Part shown: in pieces, positions 7,803 through 53,372 of the stretch
Position numbering within the stretch: the first letter of the stretch is position 1
How the letters are laid out: the number at the start of each line of letters is the position of its first letter
Assembly: GCF_000143965.1 (NCBI RefSeq)
Contig: NC_014365.1
Location: 2,073,501 to 2,137,500 of the forward strand
DNA length: 64,000 bases
Direction of reading: 5' to 3'
Source: Desulfarculus baarsii DSM 2075
Lineage (GTDB): Bacteria > Desulfobacterota > Desulfarculia > Desulfarculales > Desulfarculaceae
The notes under the pieces: generated by a model
The model's input: the letters and a program-made list of their open reading frames with translations, nothing else
Database searches by the model: none
Told to the model about the DNA's origin: nothing
Position numbers and translations under genes: made by a program

Positions 7803-7877
7803 TGGAGGCGGCGACCGGATTTGAACCGGTGAATAACGGATTTGCAGTCCGCTGCCTTACCACTTGGCTACGCCGCC
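7803..7877 (-). tRNA. tRNA-Cys (anticodon GCA)
   Basis: On the minus strand the acceptor arm GGCGGCG pairs with CGCCGCC, the discriminator is U and CCA is encoded. The D arm contains AGCCAAGTGGTAAGGCA, the anticodon loop GACTGCAAATC gives anticodon GCA, and the T arm is CCGGTTCGAATCCGG. Length is 75 nt including CCA. Confidence 0.97.
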
Positions 7878-8236: not shown

Positions 8237-8311
<75 letters not shown>

Positions 8312-51061: not shown

Positions 51062-52522
51062 ATGAACTATCACGACTTGACCATCGCGCAGGCCAGCCAG
51101 TTGCTGGCCAAGGGCGAGCTATCCTCGGTGGAGCTGACCAAAGCCATGCTCGAACGCGTGGCCGCCACCGAGGAGCGCGTCCACGCCTACATCACCCTGA
51201 CGCCCGAGTTGGCCCTGGAGCAGGCGGCCAACGCCGACAAGATGCGCGCCCAAGGCCAGGCCGGCCCGCTGACCGGCGTGCCCGCCGGCGTCAAGGACGT
51301 GCTCTGCACCCGTGGCGTGGCCACCACCTGCGCCAGCCGCATGCTGCAGAACTTCACGCCGCCCTACTCGGCCACCTTGGTGCGCAAGCTGGAGGCGGCC
51401 GGCATGGTCATGCTGGGCAAGCACAACATGGACGAGTTCGCCATGGGCAGCTCCACCGAAAACTCGGCCTTTGGCCCCACCAGCAATCCGTGGGACTTGC
51501 GGGCCGTGCCCGGAGGCTCCTCGGGCGGCTCGGCGGCCAGCGTGGCCGCGCGTTCGTGCTTTTACGCCATTGGCACCGACACCGGCGGCTCCATTCGCCA
51601 GCCGGCCAGCCACTGCGGCGTGGTCGGCCTCAAGCCGACCTACGGCCGGGTCAGCCGCCTGGGCCTGGTGGCCTTTGCCAGCAGCCTCGACCAGGCCGGG
51701 CCCATCACCCGCAGCGTGGCCGACGCGGCGACCGTCTTGCAGGTCATCGCTGGCCACGACCCGGCCGACTCCACCAGCGCCCCGCGCCCCGTGCCCGACT
51801 ACGCCGCCGCCCTGCGACGGGGCGTCAAGGGCCTGCGCCTGGGCGTGCCCAAGGAATACTTCGTCGCGGGCATGGACCCCCAGGTCGAAGACGCGGTGCG
51901 CGCGGCCATCGCCACCCTGGAGGGCCTGGGCGCCCAAGTGCGACCCATCAGCCTGCCCCACGCCGAATACAGTTTGGCGGTCTATTACATCATCGCCCCG
52001 GCCGAGTGCAGCAGCAACCTGGCCCGCTACGACGGCGTCAAGTATGGCCTGTCCATCCGCCCGGAGGGCGCGGACTTGCTGGAGATGTACACCGCCACCC
52101 GCTCCCAGGGCTTTGGCAAGGAGGTCATCCGGCGGATCATGCTGGGCACATACGTGCTCAGCGCCGGCTACTACGACGCCTATTACAACAAGGCCAGCCA
52201 GGTGCGCACGCTCTTGATCGAGGATTTCGCGGCGGCCTTCAAGGAAGTCGACGCCATCGTCACGCCGGTGGCCCCCACTCCGGCCTTTGACAAGGGCCAG
52301 ATGACCGACGATCCCATGCAGATGTATCTCAGCGATATTTTTACGCTATCGTGCAACTTGGCGGGCTTGCCGGGCATGAGCCTGCCCTGTGGTTTCGCCC
52401 AGAGCGGCCGGCCCATCGGCCTGCAACTGATGGCCCCCCACTTTGCCGAGGAGACGCTCTTGGCCGTGGGCCAGGCCTTCCAGGAGGCCACGGACTTTCA
52501 CGCCCGACTGGCCGCTATCTGA
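51062..52522 (+). CDS. gatA: Asp-tRNA(Asn)/Glu-tRNA(Gln) amidotransferase subunit A
   Basis: Amidase that releases ammonia from glutamine for the transamidation. 486 residues. The Ser-cisSer-Lys triad is intact: Lys in PAGVKDVLC, Ser residues in [15 protein letters not shown] and [34 protein letters not shown] and [15 protein letters not shown] follow. It begins 8 bases after gatC. Confidence 0.95.
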
Positions 52523-52532
52523 GGCGGATCGA

Positions 52533-52734
52533 GGCTGCTGCACGGTGAAACATAACAAATGTTGTAAAAACAGATAATTACCTGTGAAACATGAATTCCA
52601 CCGTGCAGCAGCCGAAGCGCGCCATGGACGGCGCGCCAAATCGCGAGCCTGATTAGGCGAGCGATTTGTGAGGCTTGGCAAAACCGCGCTTTTGCCAAGC
52701 CGAAGCTGCACGGGGCAGGACGCCCCCGTGCAGC
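52533..52734. other. Array of five consecutive hairpins (possible structured RNA or repeat element)
   Basis: Between gatA and its terminator I find, in order: a 15-bp perfect inverted repeat GGCTGCTGCACGGTG/CACCGTGCAGCAGCC (52533-52547, 52599-52613) enclosing 51 AT-rich bases with GTGAAACAT twice; GCGCGCC/GGCGCGC (52617-52636); AAATCGC-GA-GCCT...AGGC-GA-GCGATTT (52638-52667), whose facing GA steps could form tandem sheared G-A pairs; a 12-bp perfect GGCTTGGCAAAA/TTTTGCCAAGCC (52672-52701); and an 11-bp perfect GCTGCACGGGG/CCCCGTGCAGC (52705-52734). The first and last share CTGCACGG. No reading frame fits. Strand is set by the gatA direction only by inference. Confidence 0.6.
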
Positions 52735-52758
52735 ACTCTCGGATCAGCAAAGGCAAAA

Positions 52759-52803
52759 CAGAGCCGCGCGTTGGCGATCGACGCGCGGCTCTGCTCTTTT
52801 TTT
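52759..52803 (+). terminator. Strong rho-independent terminator
   Basis: CAGAGCCGCGCG (52759-52770) pairs perfectly with CGCGCGGCTCTG (52782-52793), 11-base loop, followed by CTC and T7 (52797-52803). It ends the gatCA/hairpin-array transcript, 15 bases before the end of the convergent gene. Confidence 0.9.
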
Positions 52804-52817
52804 GGGGCGCGGAAGGC

Positions 52818-53372
52818 TCAGTCGGCGGCGAAGTAGCGCAGCGAGCAACTGGCCGCGTCATCCTCGGCCTGGGCCGGGCGCGGGTTTTCGCCCAGGGGAT
52901 CGCCCAGGCCCAGATCGTCGGGCGCTTGGACGATCATCAACTCCAGACGGCCCGAGGGACGGCTCCACTGCCAGCTTTTGAAGGCGAAGGTGTCGTCCTG
53001 GCCGCTGGGCTGGCCATAAACGGCCTTGAGTTGGTCCAAGAGCTTGGCGAAGCTTTCGATGTGGCCTTGGGCCATCATCGTCACCGCCAGCAACTTGCCT
53101 TCGGGCGCTTTCTGGCTGAAGTATAGATAAACCCTGAACTTTTCGTCGACAAGCTCCACCGGCTCGCCCAGGGCGCAGACCGGCTTGGCCGCCGATTCGG
53201 TCCAGGGTTCGAGCTTGCGCAGCTTGGCTACCTGGGCCTGGGTCTGGCCCCAGGCCAGATTTTGCCAGCCGGCGATGTCTTGCGGCTGGCGGGCCAGCAT
53301 GAACCAAATCGTCGCCGCCGTCACGGCCGTCAACACCAGGCCCAGGCCCAACCACGGCTTTTTGCTGGTCAT
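52818..53372 (-). CDS. Membrane-anchored hypothetical protein
   Basis: 184 residues. N-terminal anchor (LGLGLVLTAVTAATIWFMLA) then a soluble domain: NLAWGQTQAQVAKLRKLEPW, a single segment RVYLYFSQKAPEGKLLAVTM, and LLDQLKAVYGQPSGQDDTF. The 'W-G-x-T-x-x-x-V' and 'L-x-x-x-Y-G-x-P' elements are seen in small periplasmic proteins of unknown role. It is probably exported. I do not recognise a named family. Confidence 0.65.
   Translation of the reverse strand: MTSKKPWLGLGLVLTAVTAATIWFMLARQPQDIAGWQNLAWGQTQAQVAKLRKLEPWTESAAKPVCALGEPVELVDEKFRVYLYFSQKAPEGKLLAVTMMAQGHIESFAKLLDQLKAVYGQPSGQDDTFAFKSWQWSRPSGRLELMIVQAPDDLGLGDPLGENPRPAQAEDDAASCSLRYFAAD

Follow-up and report, generated by a model that had tools for sequence, protein, structure and literature searches.

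The array of inverted repeats downstream of gatA in Desulfarculus baarsii DSM 2075 is almost certainly a non-autonomous, mobile transposon (a MITE). It contains a multi-hairpin core that is conserved, covaries, and is shared by several families, with three bacterial groups represented. Two of its hairpin loops resemble CsrA sites, and each transcribed copy is predicted to form a pair of such sites. We lean toward this combination, a MITE with a CsrA-site module, as the best explanation of the whole, with the CsrA part an even bet on the sequence evidence. Positions refer to the window, the whole stretch analysed (64,000 nucleotides); the host chromosome is one contig of 3,655,731 bp.

The element at the gatA locus and its genomic copies

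51062-52522, + strand: gatA (NCBIfam TIGR00132, 615 bits vs. a cutoff of 481), upstream of the element
52526-52530: left target-site duplication, GGATC, identical to 52741-52745
52531-52740, + strand: complete mobile element (MITE), 210 bp; 23 genome copies with common end bases
52531-52545, + strand: left terminal inverted repeat, GAGGCTGCTGCACGG, 13/15 identical to the right end on the other strand
52533-52613, + strand: hairpin 1 (arms 52533-52547 and 52599-52613), 15-bp stem, 51-base AT-rich core
52617-52636, + strand: hairpin 2, 7-bp stem, hexaloop AUGGAC (52624-52629) of the form ANGGAN, predicted CsrA site
52637-52668, + strand: hairpin 3, tandem G-A step (CGAG/CGAG) in the stem; the outer stem covaries
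52672-52701, + strand: hairpin 4, GGCTTGGCAAAA-CCGCGC-TTTTGCCAAGCC
52705-52734, + strand: hairpin 5, 12-bp stem with one bulged C, loop AGGAC (52717-52721), predicted CsrA site
52726-52740, - strand (read on that strand): right terminal inverted repeat, GAGAGTGCTGCACGG, matching the left end at 13/15 positions
52741-52745: right target-site duplication, GGATC, identical to 52526-52530
52759-52803, + strand: intrinsic terminator of gatA (stem 52759-52793 and T-tract), 16-pair stem, outside the element
52818-53372, - strand: unnamed 184-aa ORF, convergent with gatA

The full-length copies are 93-97% identical and occur on both strands, and the aligned copies share the start at 52531 and the stop at 52740. 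Exact 5-bp duplications flank 19 of the 23 (shuffled flanks: mean 0.9, maximum 5). By codon-usage score the full copies are intergenic, the few low-scoring frames that overlap them not being counted as genes. The element is short and without a transposase gene of its own, and its terminal inverted repeats, target-site duplications, and dispersed copies are those of a MITE. A mobile palindromic repeat was one of the readings offered in an earlier note on this DNA, which proposed a search for copies in the host genome; the 23 scattered copies, their inverted ends, and the 5 bp of target duplicated at most of them are what a repeat element should give.

The five inverted repeats of that note are found where it placed them, but the terminator that it included in the array is not part of it: the array stops at 52740, and the terminator lies to the right of the target duplication. 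The stem at 52759-52793 is an ordinary terminator, the ancestral gatA 3′ end, and the insertion lies between it and gatA. From this position alone the hairpins might pass for a local structure of the gatA 3′ UTR (multiple terminators or stability hairpins), a reading that is next to impossible and is refuted by the 23 copies, 22 of which occupy further, unrelated sites, mostly with target duplications.

The 5-bp duplications presumably reflect a cut-and-paste (DDE-type) transposase acting in trans. Such an enzyme would have moved the MITE into the spacer between gatA and the terminator, with duplication of 5 bp of target. Matches to the end sequences in the host genome include no pair of ends around a transposase, and a search of that genome for the DDE_Tnp_1 domain gave none. 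In two genomes of family f62, no paired ends around a gene were present among the end matches listed.

Mini-elements of 41-49 bp, which hardly extend beyond the two ends, likewise carry 5-bp duplications. One of 42 bp (L033 140-181; G000:C1:892689-892730), with ACTTC duplications, breaks a gene at its 3′ end. Without it the reading frame would end MHFEYRPEMFERVR, which suggests recent mobility.

REP and REPIN sequences, with their RAYT transposases, are short tagged stems without target duplication. The present element resembles them in its intergenic palindromes and many copies, and the earlier note had allowed for a set of REP-type elements. That assignment is not supported: the unit is a 210-bp element of five hairpins with inverted ends, and its 5-bp target duplications point to a DDE-type, cut-and-paste transposase. 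Tetranucleotide-tagged single stems of the REP/REPIN type were not seen. The bacterial MITEs QMITE1 and QMITE2 of Coxiella (PMC10969869) are closer, being short and without a transposase gene, with inverted ends, target duplications, many intergenic copies, and a transcript that folds strongly; the role and mRNA targets of the sRNAs derived from them are stated to be unknown (PMC10969869). Unlike these, the present element is GC-rich, and its multi-hairpin module with two ANGGA loops recurs behind different ends across bacteria.

Folding and covariation of the hairpins

The five strong hairpins all lie within 52533-52734. On the + strand the folding energy is -154.3 kcal/mol, compared with -100.2 +/- 5.1 for shuffled sequences (n = 200), or z = -10.5 with 0/200 as good; the - strand gives z = -13.3 against its shuffles. 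The structure of the array is thus far beyond chance, in agreement with the earlier view that such pairing is unusual for spacer DNA. Smaller details of that view are exact as well: the 15-bp repeat of hairpin 1 around a 51-base AT-rich core, the sequence common to the first and fifth arm pairs (CTGCACGG in both), and the facing GA/GA steps of hairpin 3. The loops of hairpins 2 and 5 are ~95 nt apart. In relatives, hairpin 1 is variable and in part missing. The tip of hairpin 4 is near-invariant in Desulfarculaceae and Mariprofundus, and other stems take its place in families f62, f81, f25, and f91.

Compensatory changes, proposed earlier as a sign of RNA function, are present. In a 28-sequence alignment the covariation score is 0.305 (slid controls, at most 0.063), with double changes in 21 of 31 pairs. 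A separate alignment of four families outside the search model, folded without it, has double changes in 19 of 26 predicted pairs. The stems are near pure Watson–Crick; G-U pairs are rare (17 variable sites vs. 11 with A-C). With no clear G-U excess, selection could act on the DNA. A DNA-level cause of the palindromes does not, however, account for two loops that keep GGA amid change.

Distribution of the core and its end types

The search model R1 is a covariance model of hairpins 2-4, with hairpin 5 outside it. Of 395 genomes of the host phylum, 15 give credible matches, in five of the sampled families and mostly with several copies each; in a sixth family, that of G020, the element was seen by DNA similarity. 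Within the phylum the core (hairpins 2-4 or 2-5) is found in many copies in families f1, f2, f25, f62, f81, and f91, with 66-69 copies in two MAGs of genus g7. Elsewhere R1 detects 18-55 copies in each of five genomes of Zetaproteobacteria (Mariprofundus group) and one copy in Marinobacter. The match in G023 (E 9.6e-4) consists only of a palindrome like hairpin 4, and this genome was rejected as a carrier.

Four types of ends surround the core. Type (a), GAG...CTC with 5-bp duplications, is that of the host genome, and equal ends are present in genus g7. Type (b), CAGGNTGTTGAAAAA-like, occurs in G003, G020, and families f62, f81, f25, and f91; its flanks are YTAR-like, a putative duplication, and often fall at stop codons. 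Type (c), TACCAAGTTGCGATCAAA, is seen in genus g7, where 5 of the 7 cases carry TNA-like duplications of 3 bp (control mean 1.6), few cases and therefore weak. Type (d), TAAGGAAGCGCTGATTAA, belongs to Mariprofundus. The core predates the MITE and has a broader distribution, being common to MITE-like elements with different ends in the three bacterial groups.

In Dethiosulfatarculus (G001; L044, L045, L050), copies of one terminator hairpin (repeats of 18-29 bp) stand on both sides of several copies of the element, as if insertion duplicated whole terminators. Gut Clostridia (Borkfalkia and others) and Gastranaerophilales also have the hairpin GGCAAAACCRCGYTTTTGCC, in arrays of hairpins between genes (loci including L084, L089, L091, L102, L108, L114, and L133). 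These arrays are without the two ANGGA hairpins, and csrA is absent in 5 of the 6 gut genomes with them that were tested.

The two GGA loops, CsrA, and known RNAs

Many bacteria use CsrA as a global regulator. The ANGGAN hexaloop is the motif of the RsmE/CsrA-RNA NMR structures, in which the protein contacts A and GGA and N is variable; CsrA SELEX favours shorter stems than those of the element (PMC7652899). The longer stems speak against a CsrA role. The loops of hairpin 2 (ANGGAN) and hairpin 5 (A(N)GGA) fit the CsrA/RsmA site consensus, which makes them strongly predicted sites. The hairpin-2 loop is nearly always A-N-GGA followed by a variable base, and its second position takes all four bases. 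Since hairpin 5 lies outside the search model, the count of its loops is a fair test: across eight genomes, GGA is found in 81 of 97 apical loops and the complementary TCC in one, the copies within one genome not being independent. These loops are mostly A(N)GGA in 7 of the 8 genomes, the exception being G401 (family f62) with UGGA. In the 23 host copies, A and GGA are invariant in both loops and the neighbouring loop bases vary, a pattern that is weak when taken alone (p about 0.07).

The simplest alternative is a selfish MITE and nothing else, quite possible but somewhat doubtful. The palindromes would serve transposition, or processes acting on the DNA (hairpin extrusion, arm-to-arm correction) would keep them perfect, and the GGA loops would be ancestral sequence or a DNA site for the transposase or a host protein, without a role in RNA. 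The clear transposon anatomy, the unbiased orientation of the copies, and the very few G-U pairs agree with it, as does hairpin 4, near-invariant within several groups despite having no CsrA motif. Against this, the two GGA loops persist between families that differ in stem sequences, hairpin 4, ends, and flanking duplications; a transposase site would be expected to follow the ends rather than the core, and the loop changes that are tolerated follow the ANGGAN pattern. A structured RNA that spreads inside MITEs and has a partner different from CsrA, such as a ribosomal or RNase protein, would equally draw on the strong covariation and wide spread, and it could accommodate the tandem G-A step and hairpin 4, which are kept in part of the family and which CsrA leaves unexplained. 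It is improbable nonetheless: the pair of GGA loops is the sole sequence kept in all lineages, and CsrA is its known reader.

In the reading that we prefer, with a CsrA-site module inside the MITE, the interior is a conserved module of four hairpins in which the two loops, ANGGAN and A(N)GGA, are the most constant parts. The RNA of the element, produced here through gatA read-through (which would give it in the GGA sense), would fold into the hairpins, and each transcribed copy might offer two sites for one CsrA/RsmA dimer. Such an RNA could serve as a weak decoy for CsrA, or it could mark the 3′ end of the transcript for CsrA. The 23 copies show no preferred orientation relative to neighbouring genes, and a search of 52300-53000 for a sigma-70-like promoter gave none, so there is no support for regular transcription of the strand that carries GGA. 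The structured RNA proposed in the earlier note may also be correct, in a form that the note did not foresee: stem covariation over wide taxa and two loops of CsrA consensus speak for it, and a bias in orientation, a sigma-70-like promoter, and a clear excess of G-U pairs were not seen.

The host genome has one csrA. Within the phylum sample, csrA is present in 14 of the 15 genomes with the element and in 177 of the other 380 (Fisher p 0.0003). The families behind this association are few, and counted by family it fails to convince; the co-occurrence could be shared ancestry. All five Zetaproteobacteria with the element, and the Marinobacter, have csrA. In the host family, genus g3 (G002, G007, G010, G012, G014) has neither csrA nor the element in 5/5 genomes. 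We did not see csrA in the copy-rich MAGs of genus g7, G009 (97% complete, 69 copies) and G015 (71% complete, 66 copies), the former being the sole genome without csrA among the 15. Both MAGs speak against the CsrA reading. In MAGs without csrA, GGA is present in 29 of 36 hairpin-2 loops vs. 63 of 64 (p 0.003) and in 26 of 34 hairpin-5 loops vs. 55 of 63 (p 0.25). This relaxation was not counted as evidence because the matches were sampled unlike one another and hairpin 2 is in the model.

An Rfam search of the whole window at the gathering threshold gave nothing at the hairpin array; its only matches are two tRNA genes (7806-7877 and 8240-8311, - strand). The Csr/Rsm sponge RNAs (CsrB, RsmX/Y/Z, RsmW; Rfam clan CL00106) similarly have GGA in several hairpin loops and occur in hosts with csrA. 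The present element differs from them in being mobile, with tens of dispersed copies, two GGA hairpins per copy, and long perfect stems; no promoter was found, and the models score below threshold. TwoAYGGAY RNA (RF01731), in which two loops read AYGGAY and a stem contains tandem G-A pairs, is predicted from its motif to bind CsrA (PMC4333381), and the present element has likewise two ANGGA-type loops and a tandem G-A step (hairpin 3). Membership in that family was rejected, the best scores among relatives being 27.6 bits (partial) and 23.0 bits (full length) against a gathering threshold of 43, and the alignment examined rests on one hairpin; in the host genome there is no match at E<=10. TwoAYGGAY and RsmW, both of the Rfam CsrA clan, align to the same strand of copies in G001, G011, and Marinobacter, with scores below threshold. 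A match of PrrB/RsmZ to L043 is on the wrong strand of the element and was not counted. A permissive Rfam search aligned Pxr to 52698-52800 (39 bits vs. a gathering threshold of 80); it was rejected because the match runs across the element end and the target duplication into the terminator, and these parts do not share one line of inheritance.

Sponge RNAs for CsrA were stated in 2014 to be known only from Gammaproteobacteria (PMC4333381). A literature search for a CsrA-binding MITE found none, and neither Rfam nor the searched literature gave a description of the element family; one may exist elsewhere. With chances somewhat below even, the elements would constitute a family of transposable CsrA decoys in Thermodesulfobacteriota and Zetaproteobacteria, in which a Csr-type RNA module would be the cargo of several MITEs at tens of copies per genome and transposition itself would set the CsrA-site load of the cell. 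If true, the sponge RNAs, known to date for the most part from Gammaproteobacteria, would also have a mobile form. If CsrA binds the repeats, mobile DNA would have seeded regulator sites throughout the genomes of two further lineages, and the number of copies of a “junk” repeat would become a variable in regulation. A class of intergenic palindromes that had no explanation can now be approached directly, through a single binding assay. Even without CsrA, a covarying module that keeps two loops behind several transposon ends calls for an explanation.

Two variants of the core may be added. In G209 (L217 1501-1669), a second copy of the core directly follows the first, so the element can stand in tandem. 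Some copies (L051, L052, L073, L090, L097), in G001, G011, and elsewhere in genus g7, have an extra nested hairpin (CACCCC...GGGGACCCC) directly after ATGGA in the hairpin-2 loop; the same hairpin in two genera suggests an old structural variant and not a chance insertion.
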